From Beijerinckiaceae bacterium (GTDB lineage Bacteria > Pseudomonadota > Alphaproteobacteria > Rhizobiales > Beijerinckiaceae), in NCBI GenBank assembly GCA_030684835.1, contig JAUXWZ010000157.1, forward strand, positions 124,001 through 188,000: 64,000 bases of DNA, written 5' to 3'. Each line of letters opens with the position of its first letter. The stretch's first letter is position 1. The position numbers were made by a program, and so were the translations under genes. The notes under the pieces were generated by a model. The model searched no databases. It was not told where the DNA came from and saw only the letters and a list, made by a program, of their open reading frames with translations. Shown here one piece after another: positions 8,629 through 21,254 of the stretch.

Positions 8629-9672
8629 TCAGACTTTTGCCTGCGCGCGCATGTCCGACAACATCTGCGCGACCTTGGCGCCCGCCACGCTCTCGATGTC
8701 GTCCTGATATTTGAGAAGTACGCCCAGCGTGTCGTTCACGAGCGCGGCGTCAAGCGCGACGGCGTTGAGCTCATGAAGCGCGCTCGCCCAGTCCAGCGTT
8801 TCCGCCACGCCCGGCTTCTTGAACAAGTCCTGCCGGCGCAAATCCTGCACGAACGCGACGATCTCGCTGGTCAGGCGCTCTGGCGCGTCGGGCGCCTTGA
8901 CGCGCACGATCTGCGTTTCGCGCTCGGAATTGGGATAGCCAACCCAATGATAAAGGCAGCGCCGCTTCAAGGCGTCGTGGATTTCGCGCGTGCGGTTGGA
9001 TGTTATGATGACAATGGGCGGCTGCGCGGCCTTGATGGCGCCCAGCTCCGGCACGGTGATCTGGAAGTCCGACAACGCCTCAAGTAGAAAAGCCTCGAAC
9101 GCTTCGTCCGTGCGGTCGAGTTCGTCGATCAACAGGACCGGCGGGCCGCCCGGCTGCGGCTCCATCGCCTGCAACAAGGGGCGGCGCACAAGGTAGCGCT
9201 CGGAGAAAATGTCCTGTTCGAGGCGCGCACGATCCGTCTCGCCAGCGGCTTCCGCCAGCCGGATGGCCATCATCTGCGCGGCGTAATTCCACTCGTAGAC
9301 AGCCGAGGAAACGTCGAGCCCTTCGTAGCATTGCAGGCGAATGAGTCTGCGCCCCAGCGCGGCGGCGAGCACCTTCGCGATCTCGGTCTTGCCGACGCCC
9401 GCCTCGCCTTCCAGAAACAGCGGTCGGCCCATGCGCAGAGCAAGAAACAAAACCGTCGCCAGCGAGCGGTCCGCGACATAGGACGCGCCTGAAAGCAGCG
9501 TCACGGTCTCATCGATGGAATCCGGTAGGGCATGCGCCACGGGGACTTGTTCCACGGGGACTTGTTCCACGGAGTCTTGTTCCACTGAGTCTTGTTCGAC
9601 TGAGTCTTGTTCGACTGAGTCTTGCGGCTGGTTTCGTGGAGACTTAGGCGGCACGCTAATCTTCCCCGTCAA
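8629..9672 (-). CDS. coxD: CoxD-type MoxR-family AAA+ ATPase
   Basis: 347 residues. After a low-complexity N-terminus comes a MoxR AAA+ domain with Walker A LFLEGEAGVGKTEIAKVL near residue 85, Walker B PVLLIDELDRTDEAFEAFL and sensor 1 VIITSNRTREIHDALKRRC. It is the partner of the CoxE VWA protein in post-translational assembly of the CODH active site. The first ~45 residues contain six VEQDS/VEQVP units encoded by a 15-bp tandem repeat, which is not part of the family. The gene starts only 41 bp from the left end of the integrated element, so its native upstream sequence has been displaced. Confidence 0.93.
   Translation of the reverse strand: MTGKISVPPKSPRNQPQDSVEQDSVEQDSVEQDSVEQVPVEQVPVAHALPDSIDETVTLLSGASYVADRSLATVLFLALRMGRPLFLEGEAGVGKTEIAKVLAAALGRRLIRLQCYEGLDVSSAVYEWNYAAQMMAIRLAEAAGETDRARLEQDIFSERYLVRRPLLQAMEPQPGGPPVLLIDELDRTDEAFEAFLLEALSDFQITVPELGAIKAAQPPIVIITSNRTREIHDALKRRCLYHWVGYPNSERETQIVRVKAPDAPERLTSEIVAFVQDLRRQDLFKKPGVAETLDWASALHELNAVALDAALVNDTLGVLLKYQDDIESVAGAKVAQMLSDMRAQAKV
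9539..9628. repeat. six 15-bp tandem repeats encoding (V-E-Q-D/V-S/P) units in CoxD
   Basis: On the + strand the units start at 9539, 9554, 9569, 9584, 9599 and 9614. Neighbouring units are identical or differ by one to three bases; the last is degenerate at its end. The unit length is a multiple of three, so copy-number change would keep the frame and lengthen or shorten the CoxD N-terminus. Confidence 0.9.
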
Positions 9673-9712: not shown

Positions 9713-9729
9713 TCCCTCCCCGATGGGGA
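9713..9729. other. attL core, left copy of 17-bp direct repeat
   Basis: TCCCTCCCCGATGGGGA, identical to 20403-20419. The identity ends abruptly on both sides (A versus T on the left, A versus G on the right). At the right end the same bases form the first part of a perfect CCCTCCCC-GAT-GGGGAGGG hairpin downstream of coxM, so the integration target was probably that hairpin between coxM and coxD. Confidence 0.7.
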
Positions 9730-9832
9730 ATGGTAAGTGTAACTCTATGCTAACGGACTGATAGCGTAAACGACTGTTTTGCAGGCGTTTTCCACAACCC
9801 CGTTAACTAACTGAAACGCGCGGCAAACGCCC

Positions 9833-9852
9833 ATCTTTGGTCGATCTTTGGT
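9833..9852 (+). other. integrase arm-type repeats, left pair
   Basis: Two direct copies of ATCTTTGGT at 9833-9841 and 9844-9852, 11 bp apart, about 100 bp inside the left core. The right end of the element has the same pair with the same 11-bp spacing and orientation. Spaced short direct repeats near the core are typical arm-binding sites of lambda-type integrases; binding is inferred. Confidence 0.65.
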
Positions 9853-9895
9853 TGCGTGTTCGGTATGATCGGCAACGAGCAAGGAGCAACACTCA

Positions 9896-11158
9896 ATGGC
9901 TGGGAGAGCACGAAACTGCAACATCGAAACCACATCGGCGCGCAAGAAATTGAAGCGCGGCAGACAACCACATTGGCAAACTCTGGAGCCGGGCAAGTCG
10001 CATCTTGGCTGGCAGCGCGATCCTGACGCGCCGGAAGGCCGGTGGCTGGCCCGACGCTTCGACGGCCGGAAGTACACCGTCAGGACCATCGGCGTCGCCG
10101 ACGACGCGCGGAAGGCCGATGGCGACGCGGTGCTCGACTACGCGATGGCGACGCGCGCCGCGCTCGCCGTAGTCGATGCGCCATCGGCGAAGAAACCGCC
10201 CGCAAGCTACCGCGTGCGCGACGCCATCGAAGATTATCTGATCTACAAGCGGAACCGGGGCCAGTCCGAAGCCGCGCAACGGGCGACGCTGCTGACGGCG
10301 CGGCGGCATATCCTACCATCGCTCGGTCACTTGATCGTGAACGACCTTCAGCCCGAAACCCTCGACGCATGGGCGGCGGCAATCGCCGCTCAGCCGCCGA
10401 TGGATCGCACCGGCAAGCCGCGTGAGAAGCGCGCGGCCCCGGAAGCGATCAAACGCGGCAAGGCGAGCGCCAATAGGATCGGCACGATCTTGAAGGCCGC
10501 TCTGCGCCTCGCCCTTCAGCATCGCAAGGTGACGAACTCGCAATGGCTGATCGGGGCGAAAAAATATCGCGATGTTGAAACGCCGCGCACCGATTACTGG
10601 ACCGTCGGGGAAGCGGCCCGACTGGTCGCCGCGTGTGATCCCGACTTCGCTCAGATTGTGCAAGCCGGTTTGCTGTGCGGCGCGCGTTGGGGCGAGTTGC
10701 GCCAACTGCGTGTTCAAGACTTCAAGCGCGATCACGGCGCGTTGTACGTTGCGGCAGGGACGAGCAAAACCGGCAAAGAACGCTTCATCACCCTGTCGCG
10801 GCAAGGGGAAGCGTTCTTTCAATCCGTGTGCGCCGGTCGCGGCAGGGACGAGCCGCTATTGAGAACCGCCAACGGCGCGGCGTGGAAGTTGGGACAACAG
10901 CGGCTCCGAATGCGAGCCGCGTGCAAGGCCGCAGCATTGCGCCCTATTGGATTTCATTGCACGCGTCACACTTGCGCAAGTTTGTCGTTGATGGGCGGCG
11001 TCGAACCGCATTTGCTCGCCGCCAATTTAGGTATGAGCCTCGCTATTTTGCTCTCGACCTACGGCCACATCAGCGACCGGCACCGCAAGGAACGCATCGA
11101 GGCTGGATCGCCGAAGTTCGATTTCCCCCTCGACCGGAAGGTTGTCGCTTTGCGTTAA
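9896..11158 (+). CDS. int: tyrosine recombinase/integrase
   Basis: 420 residues with a phage-integrase catalytic domain in the C-terminal half. Catalytic residues are visible: Arg in CGARWGELRQLRVQDF, Lys in SKTGKERFITL, HxxR in FHCTRHTCASLS and the nucleophile Tyr in LAILLSTYGHISDRHR. The N-terminal part contains a SAM-like core-binding region (VRDAIEDYLIYKRNRGQSE). The gene reads inward from the left end of the element and should drive its integration and, with an excisionase, its excision. Confidence 0.95.
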   Translation: MAGRARNCNIETTSARKKLKRGRQPHWQTLEPGKSHLGWQRDPDAPEGRWLARRFDGRKYTVRTIGVADDARKADGDAVLDYAMATRAALAVVDAPSAKKPPASYRVRDAIEDYLIYKRNRGQSEAAQRATLLTARRHILPSLGHLIVNDLQPETLDAWAAAIAAQPPMDRTGKPREKRAAPEAIKRGKASANRIGTILKAALRLALQHRKVTNSQWLIGAKKYRDVETPRTDYWTVGEAARLVAACDPDFAQIVQAGLLCGARWGELRQLRVQDFKRDHGALYVAAGTSKTGKERFITLSRQGEAFFQSVCAGRGRDEPLLRTANGAAWKLGQQRLRMRAACKAAALRPIGFHCTRHTCASLSLMGGVEPHLLAANLGMSLAILLSTYGHISDRHRKERIEAGSPKFDFPLDRKVVALR

Positions 11159-11463
11159 TATCAAATAACTATTTATCTTTAGCCAACAACGGCGCGTCTC
11201 GTAAGGGGCGCGCCGTTCCTTTTGGTTCAAGCGTGACTTTATTAAAAGCCCGAAAACATGCCCGACAAATCATTTCGGATGCGGAATTTTAACCAACTAA
11301 AAATCCTGGCATTTTGAACACTAATAGCGCGCGCGCGAGCCTTCCAAGTTCCCTCCAAACAGCGCGATATTTTTATGCTAAGTGCCGTTGACGCGCTGAA
11401 GGGTTTCGGTGTCCTTACCAGATAACGCTCATCAAACGGCGTTCGTTAGTAAGGAGACAAGCG
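11159..11463. other. intergenic region between integrase and AlpA-like gene
   Basis: AT-richer than the flanks. It begins with a terminator-like hairpin at 11188-11217 and contains no supported gene. The right part, just before the AlpA-like start, has AAGGAG as ribosome-binding site at ~11452; the promoter is presumably in 11290-11440, but I could not identify boxes with confidence. Confidence 0.5.
11188..11222 (+). terminator. rho-independent-like terminator after integrase
   Basis: Perfect 9-bp arms AACGGCGCG (11188-11196) and CGCGCCGTT (11209-11217), with a 12-base loop, followed by CCTTTT. It lies 30 bases after the integrase stop. Confidence 0.7.
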
Positions 11464-11889
11464 ATGGATGACGACGATTATCTGACGCGAACCCAGTTTT
11501 GCGCAGGCCTAAATTGGAGCAAGCCGACATTCTATCGACGGCGCGCGCGCGGCGACACGCCCGAAGAAATTTACATTCGCGGCCAACGCGAGCCAATCAT
11601 CACGCTGAAGGCGCGCGACGCATGGCTGGCACGGATGGAAGAACGGTCGCGCAGCGAAGACGAACAGGCGGCGCGGCAACGCCGCGCTGAGAATTGCCGC
11701 CGCGCAGCCTTGATCGGTTTGCAATCGCCACACCACCCCGCGAGCCGCCGGATCGCCGCAAGGAAAGCCCGCGAGGCGGCAGAGGCGACGAAGAAGAAAG
11801 CCCCAGCACCGAAACCAACGAAACAAGCGCCAGCAAAACCAACCAAGCAAGCGCCAGAAAAATCAAAACTCGCGCGCCAACGCGCGTGA
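11464..11889 (+). CDS. AlpA-like small DNA-binding protein with Lys/Ala/Pro-rich tail
   Basis: 141 residues. Residues ~6-50 (LTRTQFCAGLNWSKPTFYRR and then a strand-turn-strand segment) look like an AlpA/MerR-type winged helix-turn-helix, as in excisionase-like regulators of integrated elements. The second half is basic and ends in KPTKQAP repeats between residues ~115 and 135. The ribosome-binding site AAGGAG is well placed. Its position next to the integrase suggests an excisionase or regulator of the element. The family assignment rests on pattern only. Confidence 0.6.
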   Translation: MDDDDYLTRTQFCAGLNWSKPTFYRRRARGDTPEEIYIRGQREPIITLKARDAWLARMEERSRSEDEQAARQRRAENCRRAALIGLQSPHHPASRRIAARKAREAAEATKKKAPAPKPTKQAPAKPTKQAPEKSKLARQRA

Positions 11890-11959
11890 GCAGGCGCGCG
11901 CCGCCTCAATAACCAAGGAAGACCTCACATGACAAATCTAAATAGCAGAGCGACACATC

Positions 11960-12397
11960 ATGACACGCAAAACGAAAAACCCCGGCGCGAGAGACGCCGG
12001 GGCTCAAGTAGATCATGGGTATGAAAAAGTTGCTGAAGGCAACGAGCGACTGAAACACAAAACGCTCGCCGCTGCAAGCGCATTGTTGCCCGACGCCAGC
12101 CCCTATCAACTTCATGTGACGGATGACGGCACGGAAGTTTATCAAGCCAGTTGCGAGAACCACCACAAAGATTGGGTTCCGTCGCGCGGCGTTCCCTTTA
12201 TGAAAGTCAACGTTGTTGGCGTTGAAGACAACGGCGTTCGTGAAGTGACGAACACCTATTTTTACGCAAAGCCGCGCGGGCGTGGGTGGCTCATGGATTT
12301 AGCAGGAATTTATAATCCATATCAGCCATCTATTTGTTACTCCCGATGGACGCGCCTGCGCACATGGCCGCTTAAGTCAAATAAGGAGGGCGTGTGA
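11960..12397 (+). CDS. unknown element protein (145 aa)
   Basis: No family recognised. The ORF has good codon structure beyond residue ~20, with a Trp/Tyr-rich C-terminus (GRGWLMDLAGIYNPYQPSI). The proposed ATG at 11960 lacks a ribosome-binding site, and codons 7-15 coincide with a perfect hairpin. A different-frame ORF of 31 codons at 11930-12025 has a better Shine-Dalgarno sequence (AAGGAAG). The N-terminus is therefore uncertain. The stop overlaps the primase start in an ATGA. Confidence 0.5.
   Translation: MTRKTKNPGARDAGAQVDHGYEKVAEGNERLKHKTLAAASALLPDASPYQLHVTDDGTEVYQASCENHHKDWVPSRGVPFMKVNVVGVEDNGVREVTNTYFYAKPRGRGWLMDLAGIYNPYQPSICYSRWTRLRTWPLKSNKEGV
11980..12002 (-). terminator. perfect hairpin, terminator-like on the minus strand
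   Basis: Arms CCCCGGCG (11980-11987) and CGCCGGGG (11995-12002), loop of seven. On the minus strand the stem is followed by TTTTTCG, the layout of an intrinsic terminator. It lies within the proposed 5' codons of the 145-residue ORF. Confidence 0.6.
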
Positions 12398-13506
12398 TGA
12401 TCGTCAACGAAAACAAACTAAGCGACTTCACATGCGGCGTCTTCAAATACGCAACACCGGGCGCGTTCGTCTATGTCGCGATGCTTCCGCAAGGCGGCGA
12501 TCAAACGCCCGTGCAACGGTTTGTGCGCATCGAAACTGACCGCGCTCCACTGATCGCCGCTATCATCAACCTTGCGCAACGTGCGGCGGATACCAAAGCG
12601 CCAACCATGTTCGCCGGAGCCATCGCAAGTTTCACCAACGGCGACAATGCGGCGCTCAACGTGCGCGAAGCGTACACGATCAGCGTTGATTGCGATCAGG
12701 ACTGCGACAACAGCCGTGCGATGCTGGAAGCCGTACTAGGCAAGGCAACTTTTGTAATAGCTTCGGGCGGCCTCTGGCGTAATCCGAAAACAGGCAAAGA
12801 CGAAGAAAAGCTGCATCTTCATTGGCGTTTGATGCAAGCCGCTCGCGGCGATGATCTGGCGAAGGTGCAACAGGCGCGGCGCATGGCGGTCACACTTGTT
12901 GGCGGCGATCCATCGGGCATATCGCTGGCGCATTGTTTCCGCTATCCCGGCAGCATCCATCGCAAAGGTGAGCCGCGATACGCCGACATTATTGCAGAGA
13001 CAAATAACGAAATCGACCTAGACGACGCTATTGTTAAATTGGAACGCGTATTGAAAGACGGCGGCGTTGCGCTGCCCGCCGTTCGTTCACCGCCGCTATT
13101 GTCTATTGTTCCGACGCAGATCAATGATGCTGACGACGAAGCGATGCGTGGCTTGCCAACCGGCTTGGACAACATAACCGCCTTCGATATTGGACAATGG
13201 GCGCGGCCCCAAGATGTTGCGACGGTGCTATTCAATGACTGGAACGCTGATTTGTATCCTGATTGGACCCATGCGGCGCTCGCCTTGCACAGCGTTCCTT
13301 ATGGCAAACAGCTTTGGATGGAGTGGAGTGCAACTTCGCCGAAGTTTCGCCCCCTTCAAGCCGAACGCAAATGGCGACAAACCTATCCGCGAAACGCAAT
13401 AGGGATCGGCTCAATCTTGCATCGCGCATCCCTCGACGTACTGCGTCAAATGGCAGATGAAGCACGCGCCGAAATGCAACTAAAGGGGGCGACCGATGGA
13501 CGATAG
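12397..13506 (+). CDS. archaeo-eukaryotic-type primase (RepB-like / PriCT) of the element
   Basis: 369 residues. Pattern features of the AEP primase fold are present: ISVDCDQDCDN (acidic metal site), FVIASGG, KLHLHWRL (His pair) and HCFRYPGSIHRKGEP. The C-terminal ~100 residues (WNADLYPDWTHAALALHS) resemble a PriCT module. ATG at 12397 is chosen because AAGGAGGG lies 7 bases upstream; a GTG at 12394 is also in frame. The stop overlaps the helicase start. Primase next to a RepA-like ATPase is the replication module of many small integrated elements. Confidence 0.78.
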   Translation: MIVNENKLSDFTCGVFKYATPGAFVYVAMLPQGGDQTPVQRFVRIETDRAPLIAAIINLAQRAADTKAPTMFAGAIASFTNGDNAALNVREAYTISVDCDQDCDNSRAMLEAVLGKATFVIASGGLWRNPKTGKDEEKLHLHWRLMQAARGDDLAKVQQARRMAVTLVGGDPSGISLAHCFRYPGSIHRKGEPRYADIIAETNNEIDLDDAIVKLERVLKDGGVALPAVRSPPLLSIVPTQINDADDEAMRGLPTGLDNITAFDIGQWARPQDVATVLFNDWNADLYPDWTHAALALHSVPYGKQLWMEWSATSPKFRPLQAERKWRQTYPRNAIGIGSILHRASLDVLRQMADEARAEMQLKGATDGR

Positions 13507-14726
13507 TAACGAACCAAAATTTGTTACTTACGATCTTGCTGCGGCACAGAGGGAGAAACAAAAGCAGAAACGGAAACCCGTTGTTACCTCAGCTTTCAAA
13601 TGGAGTGAACCTATGGACATTCCGCATCGCGAGTTCCTTTATGACAAACACTACGTTCGCAAATACATTTCAACGACGCTCGCGCCCGGTGGTATTGGCA
13701 AAATCGTCGCTGATCATCGGCGAGGCGTTGGCGATGGTGTCGGGAAAACCTCTGCTCGGTTTGACGCCACATGAACGATTGAGGGTTTGGCTCTGGAACG
13801 GAGAAGACCCGATGGATGAATTGCAGCGACGTATCATGGCGGCAGTTAAATACCACAATCTGCAACGTGAAGACATTGAAGGTTACTTATTTGTCAATAG
13901 CGGTCGCTCGTCCCCAATTACACTAGCCGCTATGGATGGGCGCGCTGCGAAGGTTGATGTTCAATCGAAAAACGAAATTATTGCAAATATCCTCGATAAC
14001 CGTATCGACCTCGTTGTGATTGATCCGCTTATCGCAAGTCATATGGTGAACGAGAATGAGAATGGCCCCATTGCTTTGGTCGCGGAGACATGGGCCGACA
14101 TTGCGGAGCAAACTAACTGCGCTATCGAACTCGTACATCACACGCGTAAGATGATCGGTGAGGCTACACATGATGACGCTCGCGGCGCATCGGCGCTGGT
14201 CAATGCTTCACGATCAGCGCGCGTGCTTAATCGAATGACCGAACATGAGGCGACGAGTTTCAAAGTCGAAAACCGCCGATTGTACTTTCGTGTCGATAAT
14301 GGCAAATCCAACATGGCGAAACCTGCGGACGCGGCTAATTGGTTTCGCATGGCGAGTATTGATCTTTGTAACGGCGAGAAAGGGTTGAGCGACAATGTTG
14401 GCGTTGTGACGAATTGGAAGCCGCCCGCCGTTGACGCCGATGTTGACTTCACCGCCCTTCGCCGCGTGCAAGAAGCCGTCGATAATGATGGCCCTTGGCG
14501 CGCTGATATACGCGTGAAAGACAAATGGGTTGGCGTCGCCGTCGCCAGCGCGTTGGGCCTCGACCTAACCAACACGCAGCACAAAAAGAAAATCAGGGAA
14601 CTCGTCAAAAAATGGATCGAGGATGGTCGCCTGCGCAATTATGAGGACACTGACGAGCATCGCGAGACAAAGACGTTCGTCAAGGTTGGGAAGTGGATTG
14701 AAAAGGGCGAACAAGAACCGTTCTGA
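13496..14726 (+). pseudogene. RepA-like AAA (AAA_25) replicative ATPase, frameshifted in Walker A
   Basis: The first 69 codons (from MDDSNEPK to APGGIGK) run in one frame, and the remainder, starting SSLIIGEALAMVSGKPLLG, continues one base later to 14726. Removing one A from the AAAA run at 13700-13703 restores GGIGKSSL, the expected Walker A, and gives a 409-residue protein. Downstream features fit RepA/AAA_25 helicases: RVWLWNGEDPMDELQRRI, DLVVIDPLIASH (Walker B) and ELVHHTRKM. The C-terminal ~80 residues look like a winged-helix region. Either a real mutation, a sequencing indel or a +1 slip could explain it. The start overlaps the primase stop. Confidence 0.82.
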
Positions 14727-14733
14727 GACCACT

Positions 14734-14899
14734 TTGCCGTAGTTGCATTAACTCCGGCAATTAACTCCGGCACTCCGGCACTTTGCACCCTCTTGCCGTA
14801 CTGCCGTACTCCACCCCCCTTCAGGGGGGGGAGTTATCAGCGGAGTGCGGCGGTGCAATTGAAGGACTACGGGACTACGGCAATAAGTGGACTACGGCA
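14734..14899. repeat. iteron-like 9-bp repeats, candidate origin of replication
   Basis: ACT(C/A)CGGCA occurs directly at 14751, 14764, 14772, 14874 and 14891, with a variant (ACTACGGGA) at 14866. The inverse or near-inverse form TGCCGTA(G/C)T occurs at 14735, 14794 and 14802. TTGCCGTAGTT and AACTCCGGCAA (14734-14760) form 11-bp inverted arms with one mismatch. A C-tract/G-tract dyad lies at 14813-14830. The block follows the primase-helicase genes directly, as in P4-type or iteron origins; function is inferred. Confidence 0.6.
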
Positions 14900-15081
14900 G
14901 AACCAACAGACCCAATGCAACTCAAAGTATTGATCAGCAGCAAAAGACAGGGGTATCCTTCAAACCGTCACGTTTCACGATCCCCAAATTTCAGGCGCTA
15001 CAGGCCGCGCGCCGCTCGCCCCTCATAGAGATAGCCCTCGACCCCCTCACGCCCGTGTAGCGCCAACGTCGCCCCGGCAAT

Positions 15082-15120
15082 CGGCATTGCAGGCGGATAC
15101 CAAACCCGGCATTGCAGGCG
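15082..15120 (+). repeat. 14-bp direct repeat
   Basis: CGGCATTGCAGGCG at 15082-15095 and again at 15107-15120, start-to-start distance 25 bp. Meaning unknown; it could belong to the origin or packaging region of the element. Confidence 0.7.
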
Positions 15121-15396
15121 TTCGGCTCTTCAATTCTCAGGCTTAAGCTGGGTTAATCCGTGTCCTGCGGTTCGCGACCGTCTCAGCATCCCAACAAAAC
15201 CCCCTGTTTCGAGCGATCACGCCTCTCGGGGGAAGAAATATAACGGATTGAAACGGCTCGAAAACGACTGTGGCAGTGGAGGATTTGAACGTTCGTGGTA
15301 TCCTGCGCGCCAGCGAAAACCAGAGATGCAACCAAACTACCGACGGAATAAGCGCGCGATTAGCCCTTGAAAGAACCGCGAAAGATCGGCCAACAC

Positions 15397-15866
15397 ATGC
15401 CCCGACCTAACCGTTCCACGACACGCGCGGGCCGCGTCCATCAAAAAGCCGCCAGCAAGATGACGAACGACGCTTCGTTGCTGCTGAACATTGATGGCCG
15501 CACGCAACTTGCCAGACGACACCGCGACGTGACCTCGCAACTGATCGATGATCAAGGCGGCATTTCTTAACTGTCCGAAGTCCGATTGCAATTGGTCAGA
15601 CGCTTCAGCGCCGCCGCGTGCATAGCCGAAATGATGAAGCCGAACTCATATCGGGCAAGTCTATTTCGATTAGCGATCACGCGGTTTTAACAAGCAGCTT
15701 GGTTCGCTTGTCAGCACGTTTAGGATTAGATCGGCGCATGAAGAACCTCACGCCTATCCTGCAAGACTATTTACATTCGCAACCAACACGCGAACAGCAA
15801 GACGCGCAACGCGCCGCCGCACGCGTCGATGGGCTTGATGAAGACGACGATCTTATTGAACAATAG
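15397..15866 (+). pseudogene. decayed small phage-type gene upstream of terminase
   Basis: Frame 1 reads MPRPNRSTTRAGR to IDGRTQLARRHRDVTSQLI up to an in-frame TAA at 15568-15570, and then continues sensibly in the same frame as LSEVRLQLVRRFSAAACIAEMM. At about 15636 one base is missing, and the protein continues in another frame as EAELISGKSISISDHAVL and LVRLSARLGLDRRMKN to the stop at 15866. With the base restored, the whole is 157 codons with one internal stop. Composition and position before TerL suggest a small-terminase or similar packaging-linked gene; that assignment is weak. Confidence 0.6.
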
Positions 15867-15883
15867 CTATTGAGCATAAGTTA

Positions 15884-17386
15884 ATGAACATTCTGCAAGC
15901 CTGCCGTGATCCAAACCTGTTTGCGCGATGGTTCACGCGCAAAGGTAAAAAGGCTGATACGTGGACGGCGTGGTTTGCAATCCTTGCTGCGATCTTCGCA
16001 CTACCGATGACCGATCAGCAATTGGAAACCTACCGCACACTGACCGGCAGGACGGAGCCGCCAACGAAGCAAGCCAGCGAGGCATGGTTGATCGTCGGTC
16101 GGCGCGCAGGCAAAAGCTTCATACTAGCGCTGATCGCCGTTTATCTCGCCGCCTTCCACAACTATAAATCGTTTTTGCAGCCGGGTGAGAGGGCAGTGGT
16201 ATTGATCATTGCCGCTGATCGGCGACAGGCGCGCGTCATCTTTCGTTACGTGCGCGCACTACTGACTGGCGTTCCCATGTTGCGCGAAATGATCCAGCGC
16301 CAAACCAATGACACGTTCGACCTTGAAAACAGAACGACGATTGAGATTGCAACCGCCAGCTATCGAACTGTGCGCGGTTACACATTGGTCGCCGCGCTAT
16401 TGGACGAACTCGCCTTCTGGCCGACCGAAGGCATGGACCCCGACAGCGAAGTGATCGCGGCGCTGCGACCTGCGATGGCCACTATTCCGAATAGCATGTT
16501 GCTGTGTGCGTCGAGCCCCTACGCACGCAAGGGCTCGCTTTTTAAGGCTCACGAAAAGCACTTCGCTATTGACGGCGATCCGATCCTCGTCATTCAAGGA
16601 AGCACGCGCCAACTAAACCCTTGCGTGCCGCAGCGTGTGATTGACGAAGCTTACGAAGACGATCCAATCGCAGCCGCTGCTGAATATGGCGGTCTATTTA
16701 GAAGTGACGCAACGCGACTGATTACAAGCGAAGCCATCGCCGCATGTGTAACCGCAGGTATCTTTGAACGCGCGCCGCAACGCCTAGCGCGCCATGTGGC
16801 GTTTGTCGATCCTTCAGGCGGCAGCGCCGATAGTTTTACAATAGCAATAGCCCACGCCGACGATGACGGAACGGCGATCCTCGATTGCGTTCGCGAAGTG
16901 CGACCACCCTTCAGTCCTGAAGCCGTTGTGCAGGAATTTGCCGCACTGGCGAAGACTTACGGTTGCACGTCAGTCACCGGAGACAAGTACGCTGGCGAGT
17001 TTCCGAGAGAACTATTTAGAAAGTGTGGTTTGGCATATTACACAAGCGAAAAAACGAAATCTGAAATCTATTTATCTCTGCTGCCGTTGATCAATTCACG
17101 CAAAGTGCAACTGCTCGATGACAAGCGCCTACTGCCTCAGTTGTCGAACCTTGAACGGCGAACGGCGCGCGGCGGTAAAGATAGCATCGACCATGCACCC
17201 GGCGCACATGATGATATTGCGAATAGCGCCGCTGGCGCATTGACGATGGTGACGCGCAACAAAGGCCGTGTCGCCTATGGCGTTATTGATCCAACGGGGC
17301 TCGTGCATGTTCTCAGCAATGATGCGGCGCGAACCCGCGCATGGCAGCGCGGACGTGTGATCGAAACGACGACAAGGTTGAATTAG
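15884..17386 (+). CDS. phage-type terminase large subunit
   Basis: 500 residues. The N-terminal ATPase has Walker A GRRAGKSFILALIAVYLAA (~residue 70) and Walker B LVAALLDELAFWP; the adaptor and the RNase-H-like nuclease follow, with VAFVDPSGGSADSFTIAIAH and a later GAHDDIANSAAGAL (acidic metal site). This is the motor that packages DNA into a procapsid. No portal, protease or capsid gene accompanies it, so any packaging would need shells from another phage. The gene is intact although its upstream neighbour is broken. Confidence 0.9.
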   Translation: MNILQACRDPNLFARWFTRKGKKADTWTAWFAILAAIFALPMTDQQLETYRTLTGRTEPPTKQASEAWLIVGRRAGKSFILALIAVYLAAFHNYKSFLQPGERAVVLIIAADRRQARVIFRYVRALLTGVPMLREMIQRQTNDTFDLENRTTIEIATASYRTVRGYTLVAALLDELAFWPTEGMDPDSEVIAALRPAMATIPNSMLLCASSPYARKGSLFKAHEKHFAIDGDPILVIQGSTRQLNPCVPQRVIDEAYEDDPIAAAAEYGGLFRSDATRLITSEAIAACVTAGIFERAPQRLARHVAFVDPSGGSADSFTIAIAHADDDGTAILDCVREVRPPFSPEAVVQEFAALAKTYGCTSVTGDKYAGEFPRELFRKCGLAYYTSEKTKSEIYLSLLPLINSRKVQLLDDKRLLPQLSNLERRTARGGKDSIDHAPGAHDDIANSAAGALTMVTRNKGRVAYGVIDPTGLVHVLSNDAARTRAWQRGRVIETTTRLN

Positions 17387-17398
17387 GAGGATTTAGAA

Positions 17399-18118
17399 AT
17401 GGTCAGAGTACCTTTATCAGTTGATGCAAGGATCATTGCGCAACACCATGCCCGCGATCCAAAAACACGGTTGCCGCTTGCCGATGATGTTCTCGCAGAA
17501 CTCGGTCGCGCGTTTCAACGGGCGAATGATACCTGCGCCAAGATTGAAACCGCCGTGCAAGCCATCATGAGCGATCAATCCCGGCCTCTGGCTGCGCGAA
17601 TGATTGACGCCAAGAAAACTATTATGCAACTCGCGGAAACGGCGACGAAAAGTTTGGACGCTGCGAAAAGCAAGGCCGCGAAGGAACTAGTCGAAATATA
17701 TAAGGCGTCATCGCCGCCGCCTGAACCAAATAACGCGGGCGAGATACGGCAAGCGTTGCGATCATTGCCGCAAGCTGAGCGTGCGGCGATCATCGCCGCT
17801 GCTATTGAGACAGGCGATCATGCAACGTCCAGCGCAATGTTAAATGCTCCAAGCTGGCTATCAGGATTGAGCGAAGCCGAACGCACGATGCGCTTGCAGG
17901 CGTGGCGCAAGGTTCATCATGGTGAACTGTTCCAGCGTGAAGCACGGCTCAACGCTGCGCTTGTTGATTTTGATCGCGGCACAAGCGCTTTCCTTGGCTT
18001 TGTTGGCGCAAGTATGCCCGATGCAAATAGGGCTGAAGCGGCGGCAGAGGCGGCGAACGCTGCTATTGCTGACGCAACGAAGACGGCGATTGAAGATAAG
18101 CAACAGGCGGCAGAATAG
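17399..18118 (+). CDS. unknown element protein (239 aa)
   Basis: Follows terL by 12 bases with a strong AGGAGG ribosome-binding site. Mostly helical, Ala-, Gln- and Glu-rich in its middle and C-terminus, no signal peptide or membrane segment. The stretch DAKKTIMQLAETATKSLDAA could form a coiled coil. No family recognised. Its position suggests a packaging or capsid-interaction role, which is inference from context only. Confidence 0.7.
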   Translation: MVRVPLSVDARIIAQHHARDPKTRLPLADDVLAELGRAFQRANDTCAKIETAVQAIMSDQSRPLAARMIDAKKTIMQLAETATKSLDAAKSKAAKELVEIYKASSPPPEPNNAGEIRQALRSLPQAERAAIIAAAIETGDHATSSAMLNAPSWLSGLSEAERTMRLQAWRKVHHGELFQREARLNAALVDFDRGTSAFLGFVGASMPDANRAEAAAEAANAAIADATKTAIEDKQQAAE

Positions 18119-18129
18119 GAGACACTAAG

Positions 18130-18654
18130 ATGGCAAAATTTTCGTATGACGTTGACCTAGAAGCGGTTCGCGATGACGCCGCCAAACTTCCGGCGCAACT
18201 CGACAGTCTCGACAAGCTGGCCGATGGTTTGGCTATTTTGTATCGCGAGAACGCCGACACCGGCAAATTCATCCTTGACACAACTTTACGCGACCGCGTG
18301 GTTGATGACCTGTGCGGCGCTATTGAGAAGAACAATTTGAAAAGCGAGAACGCTCAACTTAGATCGGAACGTGATCGACAACGAATTGCGCAGACTGTGC
18401 GCGCGGCGCTCGTCAAGGCGGGCGTCAAGCCAAACATGCTTGATGCGGCCTATTATACTTTCATGGCGAAACACAAATGTGCAATAGACGAACAAGGCCG
18501 CGTGGCTATCGTTGGCAAGGTTGGCGCAACAAATGCTGACCTTGCAGCGGTTCGCTTTTTGGATGAACAGGAAGCTGAGGCCGCGTTTGCTGAAATTGAT
18601 AATAGCAAATCAGGCGAGGCGACGAGCGCGCTTCATCGGCTATTTATGAATTAA
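18130..18654 (+). CDS. unknown element protein, scaffold-like (174 aa)
   Basis: Starts 11 bases after the previous stop with GGAGA upstream. Residues ~55-100 (AIEKNNLKSENAQLRSERDR) form a short coiled coil, followed by a compact C-terminal region (VRAALVKAGVKPNMLDAAYY). The layout of a coiled-coil N-part and a globular tail recalls GP20-type phage scaffolding proteins, but I see no diagnostic motif. Last gene of the rightward element operon. Confidence 0.65.
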   Translation: MAKFSYDVDLEAVRDDAAKLPAQLDSLDKLADGLAILYRENADTGKFILDTTLRDRVVDDLCGAIEKNNLKSENAQLRSERDRQRIAQTVRAALVKAGVKPNMLDAAYYTFMAKHKCAIDEQGRVAIVGKVGATNADLAAVRFLDEQEAEAAFAEIDNSKSGEATSALHRLFMN

Positions 18655-18684
18655 ATCGGCGGTCATCACCACATAGGCGGTGCC

Positions 18685-19863
18685 TTAAGGATTATCGACT
18701 AAGCCATCATGTACTGCTGATCGGCTCCTATCTGCGGGGCATCGCGCGCTTATTGCGTCGAGCGACAGCCGATTTTGAGCGCCGGGGATGGGCAGGACAC
18801 GCTTGTTCCCAGCTTGAGCTTGGTTTTGATCGCGCCATCGGACCATAAACATAGTGCGTCCGTCCGTTCGCTCGACACTCACATCTCCGCCTAACCTGCG
18901 GGCCATTCCCTGAATGACTTTCATGCCGAGACCCGAGTTGCTTTGTGATGGGGAAAATCCGTCCGACAATCCGCAACCGTCATCCACAACACTTAGCACG
19001 AATTGGCCATCGACGCATTGAAAGGCAACGGCGACGGTTCGACGCTCATCCGCTTTGTAAGCATGCATGCAAGCGTTCGTCACTAGTTCATTCACGATGA
19101 GTGCAATTGATGTCGCCGCCTCGCTGCTGAAAACTTGTTCTGCTGCCTCAAGAGAAAGCGTGTCCCCACGTTCACCATCGAAAAGACACCCTCTCAACTC
19201 AGCTACAACCGCGGGTAGGAATGCTGATATTTCGATGACTTCCACCGATCCTGATAAATGTAAATGATGATAAAGCGCGCCAACGGCGGCAACCCGGCGG
19301 GAGATAGATTGAAGAACTTCTACTGGATCTTGGTCGCGCGAAACTCGATGCGTCTGAAGGTCGATTAGGCTTTTCAGCATAGCAATCGTGTTCATTGTAC
19401 GATGGTTCAACTCGCGCAATAATAAGTCTCGCTCCTCGCTAAGCCTCGCGAGCTCGGCCTGAACGCGCTTAAGTTCCGTTATATCCCGCCATGCAATAGC
19501 CCCGGCAACAATGTCGCCTTGCGAATTACGAATTGGCGACGCGTTGCACAAAATAGTTTTCTGTTCACCATCGCTTGTGCGGACAATCCATTCCTCTGCG
19601 CGCACATCTTCGCCATCTCTTGTAGCGCGGCTCAAAGGTAGCTCTAGGTCGTCAGGAATACTCCCGTCGTGTCGGAACAGTTTCCACCCGGCGCTATGTT
19701 GGCCAAGCGGGAGACACAAGTCGCTCGCGGGCTTGTGAAGAAATTCTTGTCCCATCTTGCTGACGTGGACAATTGTCACATCTGGCGCAGTGGCGAGTGT
19801 GATTGCCTCCGGGATTTGATCCAGAAATTCACGTATGATTTGTACACGGCTGGCGTCTTCCAC
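18685..19863 (-). CDS. PAS-containing sensor histidine kinase (HisKA_2/HWE type), element cargo
   Basis: 392 residues, no membrane segment. An N-terminal PAS-like domain ends in GAIAWRDITELKRVQAEL, followed by the HisKA_2 box LLLRELNHRTMNTIAMLKSL (phospho-acceptor His) and an HATPase_c domain with LIVNELVTNACMHAY (N box), VVDDGCGLSD and GLGMKVIQGMARRLGG. GTG at 19863 is preferred because GGGAG lies about 8 bases upstream; a TTG at 19878 is the longest form. The last ~50 residues are beyond the kinase fold. No response regulator is adjacent. Opposite strand to the element core, so likely cargo. Confidence 0.9.
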   Translation of the reverse strand: MEDASRVQIIREFLDQIPEAITLATAPDVTIVHVSKMGQEFLHKPASDLCLPLGQHSAGWKLFRHDGSIPDDLELPLSRATRDGEDVRAEEWIVRTSDGEQKTILCNASPIRNSQGDIVAGAIAWRDITELKRVQAELARLSEERDLLLRELNHRTMNTIAMLKSLIDLQTHRVSRDQDPVEVLQSISRRVAAVGALYHHLHLSGSVEVIEISAFLPAVVAELRGCLFDGERGDTLSLEAAEQVFSSEAATSIALIVNELVTNACMHAYKADERRTVAVAFQCVDGQFVLSVVDDGCGLSDGFSPSQSNSGLGMKVIQGMARRLGGDVSVERTDGRTMFMVRWRDQNQAQAGNKRVLPIPGAQNRLSLDAISARCPADRSRSAVHDGLVDNP

Positions 19864-19936
19864 GGTGTCGTCTCCCAAGGCGTGGCTTGACAGCGTAACC
19901 TACGCCACCGGGACGCGACAAGCACTTTCACCCGAC

Positions 19937-20167
19937 TTACAGCCCGACAAACATCGCCCCGCACATCTCGACGCCCAGCGACTGCCGCGCCGGACAATCG
20001 GCAGAGACGAGCGCCAGCAGATCGGGTAAGGGAATGTCCCCTTTTTCAGCCAAGACGCGCGCCAGTTGATAGCTCCCGTGCCGGTCGCAGCGGTCGCACG
20101 CCACCTCGACGTGCGTTTCGCCCGCTTCAATCAGATCGGAAACCGTGACCGCGCCGGATGTAGGCAT
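19937..20167 (-). CDS. small Cys-containing conserved protein (76 aa)
   Basis: Short ORF with VEVACDRCDRHGSYQLARVL near the N-terminus and SADCPARQSLGVEMCG near the C-terminus: a CxxC plus two later Cys, zinc-ribbon-like. Similar small proteins of this shape are frequent in Rhizobiales accessory DNA; no function is known to me. It is the last gene before the right end of the element. Confidence 0.7.
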   Translation of the reverse strand: MPTSGAVTVSDLIEAGETHVEVACDRCDRHGSYQLARVLAEKGDIPLPDLLALVSADCPARQSLGVEMCGAMFVGL

Positions 20168-20303
20168 TTGCGTATCCTTTCCGATCCTGCGCCGCTGCGC
20201 CAGTGGCGATCCTGCGCGGCGCTGGCCCGCGAGGGTGACGACCCTGCGATGCTGCGGATGAGGCGGGCCGCGATCCTGCGCGCCCGCGTCGCGTCGTGCG
20301 CCG

Positions 20304-20323
20304 ATCTTTGGTATATCTTTGGT
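20304..20323 (+). other. integrase arm-type repeats, right pair
   Basis: ATCTTTGGT at 20304-20312 and 20315-20323, 11 bp apart, same sequence, spacing and orientation as the pair at 9833-9852. They lie ~80 bp inside the right core. Surrounding bases (20170-20300) contain several imperfect copies of GCGATCCTGCG-like sequence and no gene. Confidence 0.65.
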
Positions 20324-20402
20324 CTGGCGCTGATCGCGGTTTTCGGATGGCGCTCTAAGGCTTTGAAAAACACAAGCCTTTTAGATTATTGAAATTTCGC
20401 TT

Positions 20403-20422
20403 TCCCTCCCCGATGGGGAGGG
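20403..20422. other. attR core within a perfect hairpin downstream of coxM
   Basis: 20403-20419 equals 9713-9729. Here it is part of CCCTCCCC-GAT-GGGGAGGG (20404-20422), an 8-bp-arm hairpin 29 bases after the coxM stop. No clear T-run follows on either strand, so it may be a weak terminator or an mRNA 3'-end structure. Confidence 0.65.
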
Positions 20423-20450
20423 ATTGCATTCTCATCCGCGTTTAAATCGC

Positions 20451-21254
20451 TTACTTGGCCAGCGCCTTTTGCACGGCGCGGCGCGTCATCACCATAATCA
20501 GATGGGCGCGATATTCCGCGTCCGCGTGGATGTCTGTGTTGAGGCCTTCGGCCGGGAACGTCAGGCCGTCCAGCCCCTTTGGATGGAACTTCGCGGTCAG
20601 CGCAGCCTCGAGCTTGCTCGCGCGGAACACGCCGCCCGAACCTGCGCCAGTCACGGTAACGCGCGCTTCCTTGCCCTTCTTGGCGACGAAGACGCCGACG
20701 ATGGCATAGCGTGAAGCGGGGTTGCGGAACTTCTCGTAAGCGGCCTTGCTGGGAATCGGGAACGAGATCTTTGTGATCAGCTCGCCCTCTTCCAGCGCCG
20801 TTTCGAACAGGCCCTTAAAGAATTCATCGGCCGGGATCTTGCGCTTGTTGGTGATCACCGTCGCGCCCAGCGCGAGCACGGCGGACGGATAGTCCGCCGC
20901 CGGATCATTGTTGGCGACGGAGCCGCCGATTGTGCCGCGATGGCGCACGGCCGGATCGCCGATCATGCCTGCGAGATCGGCAAGCGCGGGAATCTTTTCC
21001 TTCACGATGTCGGACTCAGCGACGTCGAAATGGCGCGTCATGGCGCCAATGACGACGTTGCGGCCCTTCAGCTCGATGCCGCGCATGTCATCGCAACGGG
21101 AAAGATCGATCAGGCCCGTCGGCGCCGCAAGGCGCTGTTTCATGGTCGGCAGAAGCGTCATGCCGCCGGCGAGGAACTTGGAATCCTCAGCTTTGGCGGC
21201 CGTGTTCACCGCTTTGCGCGCTGTGTCCGGCCGGTGATAGGCGAACTGGTACAT
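20451..21254 (-). CDS. coxM: CO/xanthine dehydrogenase medium (FAD) subunit
   Basis: 267 residues with the two FAD-binding signatures of the family, FLAGGMTLLPTMKQRL (~residue 30) and TIGGSVANNDPAADYPSA (~residue 110), and a CO_deh_flav_C domain after that. It transfers electrons from the Fe-S subunit to the acceptor. The start at 21254 (MYQFAYHRP) lies 38 bases after the coxS stop; the longer frame to 21479 overlaps coxS and is not real. Called coxM because coxG, coxS, coxD and coxE accompany it, but the large subunit that would define the substrate is absent here. Confidence 0.92.
   Translation of the reverse strand: MYQFAYHRPDTARKAVNTAAKAEDSKFLAGGMTLLPTMKQRLAAPTGLIDLSRCDDMRGIELKGRNVVIGAMTRHFDVAESDIVKEKIPALADLAGMIGDPAVRHRGTIGGSVANNDPAADYPSAVLALGATVITNKRKIPADEFFKGLFETALEEGELITKISFPIPSKAAYEKFRNPASRYAIVGVFVAKKGKEARVTVTGAGSGGVFRASKLEAALTAKFHPKGLDGLTFPAEGLNTDIHADAEYRAHLIMVMTRRAVQKALAK

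Follow-up and report, generated by a model that had tools for sequence, protein, structure and literature searches.

The window analysed here, 64,000 nucleotides of contig JAUXWZ010000157.1 from a Beijerinckiaceae bacterium, contains an island that encodes an integrase, replication proteins and a large terminase subunit (TerL). With a probability of roughly 70 %, we read this island as a degraded representative of a widespread satellite group: small, integrative phage satellites which bring their own packaging motor and use it to fill the procapsids of a helper phage. The layout of this group runs from integrase over a helix-turn-helix (HTH) protein, primase/helicase, small terminase subunit (TerS) and TerL to one or a few virion-modifying genes. 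This core is recurrent, and relatives featuring both integrase and TerL were found bounded by repeats, mostly at tRNA genes, with no recognised portal gene. We infer excision, self-replication, packaging into helper procapsids by the element's own motor, and a cassette-driven bias on helper assembly. Detection that relies on capsid or portal genes would overlook such elements or label them as broken prophages.

Boundaries and integration site

The island spans positions 9713–20419 as a 10,690-bp insertion carrying the same 17-bp sequence, TCCCTCCCCGATGGGGA, at each end (Table 1), whereas the longest match seen in 20 shuffles was 14 bp. In the relative G041, locus L186 represents the empty site and holds a single copy of this core: the alignment of the left flank stops at window position 9729, that of the right flank begins at 20403, and the two overlap on L186 by exactly 17 bp, while the MoxR of G041 is 97 % identical to that of the window. 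Because of the paired attachment (att) sites and the single core in the empty site of a relative, the island is a discrete site-specific insertion. Among the relatives' loci L186–L214, both flank pieces fall within a locus of at most about 4 kb in 20 of 29 cases, including L188 with a right flank piece of only 63 bp, and island DNA matched the own-genome locus L185 alone when the flanks were compared with loci L185–L214. The size of about 10.7 kb given in the initial annotation therefore holds, with exact repeats starting at 9713 and 20403. Its extent of 9896–18654 covers the genes placed there, the island itself continuing to 20419 and including a minus-strand histidine kinase.

Next to both ends, copies of ATCTTTGGT (repeat family D2) are possible integrase arm sites, and a similar 14-mer sits near both ends of L010, a second locus of the same genome. 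The attachment core does not lie at a tRNA gene but in a perfect, terminator-like palindrome with 9-bp arms (TCCCTCCCCGATGGGGAGGGA, window 20403–20423).

Table 1. Features of the island in window coordinates; gene calls are longest open reading frames (ORFs), made without a trained caller. Lengths in amino acids (aa).
Feature	Position	Strand	Basis
attL, 17-bp core	9713..9729	.	exact match to 20403–20419; one copy in empty site L186
Possible integrase arm sites, two copies next to attL	9831..9852	.	repeat family D2
Tyrosine integrase, 420 aa	9896..11158	+	PF00589 5.4e-9, phrog_1 9.1e-42; 43 % to L010 integrase
AlpA/excisionase-like HTH protein, 141 aa	11464..11889	+	phrog_66 7e-4; 33 % to L010 homologue
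Protein without assigned function, 145 aa	11960..12397	+	no Pfam family, weak PHROG matches
Primase with PriCT_2 domain, 370 aa	12394..13506	+	PF08707 4e-10
AAA_25 (RepA-like) helicase, frameshifted near 13.70 kb	13496..14726	+	PF13481 4.5e-25 on second piece
TerS-like gene, disrupted	15403..15839	+	position and size; L010 homologue aligns
TerL, 500 aa, intact ORF	15884..17386	+	phrog_2 9.6e-27, PF03354 2.6e-5
Helical-bundle protein, 239 aa	17399..18118	+	family follows TerL in several relatives; AF2 model
Putative capsid scaffold (GP20-like), 174 aa	18130..18654	+	weak scaffold matches in three homologues; BFVD folds
PAS-HWE/HisKA_2 histidine kinase	18685..19878	–	PF07568 2.7e-11, PF13581 1.1e-11
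Possible integrase arm sites next to attR	20302..20323	.	repeat family D2
attR, 17-bp core within palindrome	20403..20419	.	exact repeat, empty site

Repeat-bounded relatives

While a search with the single TerL protein was positive in 6 of 200 relatives, own genome included, a TerL profile scan of genome contigs gave 355 candidate stretches and 261 relatives, with 80 kept as genome loci. By their titles, the TerL-bearing genomes include Alphaproteobacteria, Nitrospira, Acidobacteria, Gammaproteobacteria and further taxa; many are metagenome bins. With families defined as single-linkage BLAST clusters and TerL itself called in 74 of the 80 genome loci, the integrase family was present in 54/80, the TerS-like family in 55/80, and an HK97 capsid and DUF2213 in 5/80 each. 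The portal family of this TerL clade occurred in 0/80, so that the same gene order within complete prophages, the finding that the initial annotation had named as speaking for a deleted prophage, was not seen.

End repeats were searched in the window and in 57 integrase-bearing loci, drawn from 81 eligible ones with a called TerL (58 with integrase) and setting viral contigs and the locus L016 aside. Exact end repeats of 24–59 bp were found in 29 of the 57 loci (window not counted), bounding units of 7,822–18,107 bp with a median of 12,668 bp, and 23 of the 29 overlap a tRNA gene. In shuffled sequence, where shuffles were run, the longest matches measured 10–15 bp. L138 was kept with a 24-bp repeat plus an adjoining 19-bp match, while L111, L123, L129, L137 and L171, some of which carry tape-measure or capsid genes, were left out with repeats of 17–21 bp. 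The repeats of L161 and L176 coincide with contig ends and may be assembly overlaps of circular molecules. All 29 elements have an integrase by selection, 21 have the TerS-like family, and replication-gene clusters were assigned in 12, the rest being unannotated. In addition, the closed viral contigs L019, L020, L066 and L070 show terminal overlaps of 60–127 bp and units of 7,747–9,705 bp; all four carry TerL, three the integrase family and none a match to the portal cluster, the profile scans covering four of their proteins.

The same genome holds two further TerL homologues, L010 (65 % identity) and L011 (51 %). L010 is likewise 10.7 kb long, is bounded by 47-bp repeats at a tRNA-Glu gene, and follows the order of the window with integrase, HTH protein, an intact TerS-like gene, TerL and both post-TerL proteins, its helicase falling into a different cluster from that of the window.

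Virion genes behind TerL

From the 29 bounded elements we collected 116 ORFs of at least 100 aa located behind TerL on the same strand, a set that omits shorter, opposite-strand, integrase and TerL-overlapping ORFs. Pfam matches comprised three HK97 capsids, three DUF2213 proteins, one S78 protease, three tape-measure/minor-tail families with six matches in total, one tail-collar and one baseplate-plug match, with no portal in a listing that shows 25 of 27 families. The PHROG listing, showing 25 of 146 families, contains proteases and major proteins of the head as well as tape measures, and again no portal. The larger ORFs behind TerL on its strand (300 aa or more), scanned singly or via a family representative, gave no portal match either, and in the scanned proteins of the 29 elements we recognised neither a portal nor a complete head or tail. 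The satellite family with its own motor that the initial annotation had proposed is thus backed by 29 of 57 loci and by the four closed viral contigs of 7.7–9.7 kb, with the qualification that some relatives keep one capsid or tape-measure gene and that related TerLs also occur beside portals (see below).

A capsid protein is the only recognised virion gene in L156 (Thiomicrospira, 9.3 kb) and L161 (7.8 kb). Together with L172, whose end repeat measures 14 bp only, these form a gammaproteobacterial set of about 7.8–9.3 kb with one HK97 capsid as the only recognised post-TerL virion gene. Tape-measure layouts were seen in 7/29 elements (L117, L125, L126, L134, L140, L143 and L176), with a weak match in L120, and neck proteins in L117, L134 and the viral contig L019. 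The genome of L117 (Ensifer) contains a second integrase island (L240, 3.3–16 kb of G505:C106) which carries a tape-measure gene and its neighbour f18 and is devoid of TerL of this clade. Since the tape-measure/f18 pair recurs on this island, the pair suggests a movable tail cassette.

As the virion gene kept after TerL differs among the 29 bounded elements, piracy of single head or tail parts becomes testable. A wider generalisation, to which we would give slightly less than even odds, is a cross-phylum class of satellites that combine their own TerS-TerL motor with a swappable cassette re-specifying one part of the helper virion, be it scaffold, capsid protein, head protease, or tail length and neck. 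Some members would then be the mirror image of capsid-forming phage-inducible chromosomal islands (cf-PICIs), giving the motor and the tape-measure/neck proteins while borrowing the head, and if so could tune which host receives the injected DNA.

In the window, the region between TerL and the right boundary at 20419 holds two small proteins, the histidine kinase and short ORFs. The 239-aa protein is homologous to the post-TerL families f11 and f115 (hhalign probabilities of 97–99.6 %), which together with the homologous f54 are present in 9 of the 29 bounded elements. Its AlphaFold2 (AF2) model is almost wholly helical and forms a confident bundle (mean confidence, pLDDT, 86.6). For the 174-aa protein, homologues are found in L010 and, more distantly, in L112 (22 % identity, hhalign 84 %). 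Taken alone, its match to the scaffold family PF06810 at E 0.18 is at chance level, and its top PHROG match is a family of unknown function. The L112 homologue matches the scaffold families PF06810 (0.034) and phrog_172 (0.0079), and that of L010 matches the scaffold family phrog_206 at 7e-4, both also matching unrelated families weakly. The structure search proposed in the initial annotation for the two proteins returned no specific fold for the 239-aa model. For the 174-aa model (pLDDT 67), several named near-top BFVD matches were GP20 minor structural/scaffold proteins at E 0.009–0.9, with none at E≤0.001. Judging by these profile and model matches, we read the 174-aa protein with moderate confidence as a possible capsid scaffold.

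Since neither protein has a strong match to any named family, the island could also be a very small phage that is self-sufficient, its capsid and portal having diverged beyond recognition. We consider this very unlikely, the 239-aa protein being predicted as a plain helical bundle and the 174-aa protein resembling scaffolds, while circular relatives of 7.7–9.7 kb leave little room for portal, capsid and tail beyond the replication genes and TerL.

Decay of the window copy

The integrase, primase and TerL assignments of the initial annotation were borne out by PF00589, phrog_1, PF08707 and phrog_2. Its helicase is recovered by AAA_25, though not as one ORF: homologues align in two frames that meet near 13.70 kb. 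Its AlpA-like regulator is weakly supported by phrog_66, which the L010 homologue matches at 2.6e-5. That every structural gene is missing agrees with the scanned window proteins, where Pfam and PHROG gave no portal, capsid-protein or tail match, and may be slightly too strong in view of the scaffold similarity discussed above. Two further points correct or extend it. The large terminase is not kept alone, a TerS-like gene directly preceding it, and the copy in the window is damaged. The TerS-like gene is disrupted by an in-frame stop at about 15.57 kb and a frame change at about 15.64 kb, and the 159-aa TerS-like protein of L010, which has no Pfam match, aligns to it in two pieces and frames at 49 % and 42 %. 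Because of these two lesions and the frameshifted helicase, the window copy is probably dead. An assembly error is the weaker reading, as three lesions fall within one island. Another decayed copy is L016 of a relative (G067 C6:1730547–1732778), in which TerL lies in two pieces 0.9 kb apart near an f54-like gene; the stretch between the pieces holds a 270-aa ORF, called on the other strand.

Proposed life cycle

Upon infection or induction of a helper phage, an intact member would excise and replicate via its own primase-helicase. Its TerS-TerL would recognise satellite DNA and pump it into helper-made procapsids and portals, and helper tails would finish the particle. The post-TerL cassette would bias helper assembly, through a possible scaffold in the island studied here and elsewhere through a single capsid protein, through a protease or through a pair of tape-measure and neck proteins. 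With TerS and helicase broken, the window copy would need help in trans, for instance from L010 of the same genome, or is dead. A satellite with TerL and no portal must dock its motor on a foreign portal, which bears on the specificity of motor-portal matching. On the contigs C54, C62 and C191 of the own genome (G000) there are three HK97 capsid loci, two with portals, which may be helper prophages or gene transfer agents.

TerL in phages and plasmids

In an alignment of 154 TerL rows, E175, D309, D367 and D444 are invariant and K77 is present in 150. From terminase biology we take these to be catalytic residues of the motor (Walker) and nuclease domains. Against four solved terminase sequences, the TerL profile gave weak matches (E 0.001–0.006). 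Among 50,697 phage records, 71 match the TerL, the top-ranked at 28 % identity, and by count none covers 80 % of the query in one place. The partial 16.7-kb phage genome L177 (Virus Rctr16k) from an enrichment culture carries an integrase-like gene, a replication gene and a TerL of 28 % identity.

Out of 72,556 plasmid records, five also hold related TerLs, at 48–59 %. Among these, the 25.8-kb Komagataeibacter plasmid pKNA06 (L178, NZ_CP019881.1) encodes VapE, a recombinase, a TerS-like protein, TerL, DUF2213 and ParA, contains parts of the element twice and may represent a related element in episomal form. Another of the five carries a P4-family primase. These plasmids are what could be expected if TerL had been co-opted for a job other than packaging in an integrative plasmid-like element. 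We regard that as highly improbable, given the TerS-like partner, the conserved motor and nuclease residues and the repeated company of scaffold-like, capsid, protease, neck and tape-measure genes, which points to virion assembly.

Several observations weigh against the satellite interpretation. Among the viral contigs obtained by the TerL profile search (80 kept of 106 found), 30 of 80 have a Phage_portal_3-type portal near the related TerL, and on the TerL tree (154 rows, FastTree) 7 changes of the portal label are required. No clear end repeat, but a shorter one or none, was seen in 28 of the 57 loci, some of which end at a contig edge. Divergent portals could escape the profiles, and opposite-strand, short and pre-TerL proteins were outside the set scans of the 29 elements. 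Several relatives are metagenome bins whose phylum assignment could be a binning error. Moreover, the TerS label is positional, derived from place and size, and the scaffold call depends on weak matches and a low-confidence model. At E≤0.001 the own genome has no PF06810 scaffold gene, and its capsid and portal loci may be prophages or gene transfer agents.

The wider TerL clade also serves genuine phages. As the portal label is scattered on the tree and portal-bearing viral contigs exist, an exchange of TerL between phages and satellites is probable. A different TerS family is present in 16 of the 29 portal-labelled tree rows. The smallest supported sets around the window (2 and 4 rows) are without a Phage_portal_3-type portal. 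Both the portals near related TerLs and the degradation of the window copy would suit an ordinary prophage reduced by deletion, its former head and tail genes behind TerL having been lost. Such an origin is nevertheless unlikely: the short integrase-TerL layout stands between att repeats in 29 elements from many genera, chance deletions would not spare the end repeats every time, and the sister L010 has matching content. A complete tailed prophage differs further from the island in that no portal, capsid or tail matches follow TerL in the window.

Comparison with known satellites

P4-like satellites are recognised by the feature set P4 alpha, Sid, Psu and Delta. The comparisons that follow draw on excerpts of the cited papers, in which satellites either use the TerL of the helper or bring TerL along with the head. 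The gene set described here does not appear in the literature searched, the original description of the virion encapsidated integrative mobile elements (VEIMEs; Eppley 2022) being outside its scope.

Phage-inducible chromosomal islands (PICIs), for which sizes of around 15 kb (PMC6092414) and 9.5 kb on average (PMC10803314) are given, resemble the elements studied here in integrase, AlpA-like regulator, primase/replication genes, att sites, similar size and the lack of a complete structural module. Some carry TerS, and the excerpted PICI descriptions name TerS at most (PMC6092414, PMC10803314), whereas the elements here have a conserved TerL together with a TerS-like gene. Like a PICI, the window island is att-bounded (17-bp att, empty site) and has an integrase. 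Unlike PICIs, with TerS or no packaging gene, it has TerL. It shows no capsid, portal or tail match but a possible scaffold, and relatives may hold one capsid or tape-measure gene.

The cf-PICIs, averaging 14 kb, have their own TerS and TerL (PMC10803314), encode capsid, protease, portal and connectors, and need the helper for tails only (PMC10690885). They share TerL with the elements described here, whose TerS-like gene is so named by its position and is whole in L010 and disrupted in the window. They differ in that no portal and usually no capsid gene is recognised here. None of capsid, protease, portal and connectors was found in the window, nor any portal in the scanned proteins of the 29 relatives, and the island falls fully within neither the PICI nor the cf-PICI definition. 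A cf-PICI lineage that has lost its head genes would account for TerS and TerL (PMC10690885) and for the single capsid gene or protease kept by some relatives. We find this rather unlikely, because no bounded element has a portal or full head module and the cassettes vary by lineage instead of forming one eroding series, in a TerL comparison that included no cf-PICI TerL.

By description rather than by sequence, the lone capsid genes of L156 and L161 and the scaffold-like 174-aa protein recall Ccm of SaPIbov5, a homologue of the capsid protein that acts in redirecting the capsids of the helper (PMC8569155), and CpmA/CpmB of SaPI1, which act in capsid redirection (PMC5644958). Unlike SaPIbov5 and SaPI1, the elements here add their own TerL. 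The Streptomyces satellites MulchRoom and MiniFlayer likewise have their own TerS and TerL but also portal, capsid, scaffold and adapter genes (PMC10690885). An earlier hint comes from seven small closed gut contigs with TerL or portal and no identifiable capsid, whose authors considered satellites among the possibilities (PMC7762592). They are alike by description as closed small genomes with a packaging hallmark and no capsid gene, though not treated there as an integrative family. VEIMEs are integrative satellites that were found in marine virions; they are likened here via the descriptions in PMC10803314 and PMC10690885. Phage-inducible chromosomal minimalist islands (PICMIs) integrate beside fis, with three core proteins and no packaging-redirection genes (PMC10803314), whereas the window island has TerL and lies between MoxR-like and CoxM-like genes named by eye.

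Neighbouring genes and cargo

To the left of the island lies the MoxR-like gene (8629–9672) and to the right the CoxM-like gene, which ends at 20451, both on the minus strand and with names read from the translation. The histidine kinase is probable cargo. The G+C content of the island is about 51–57 % over most of its length and 65 % in the integrase stretch, compared to about 59–65 % in the surroundings.

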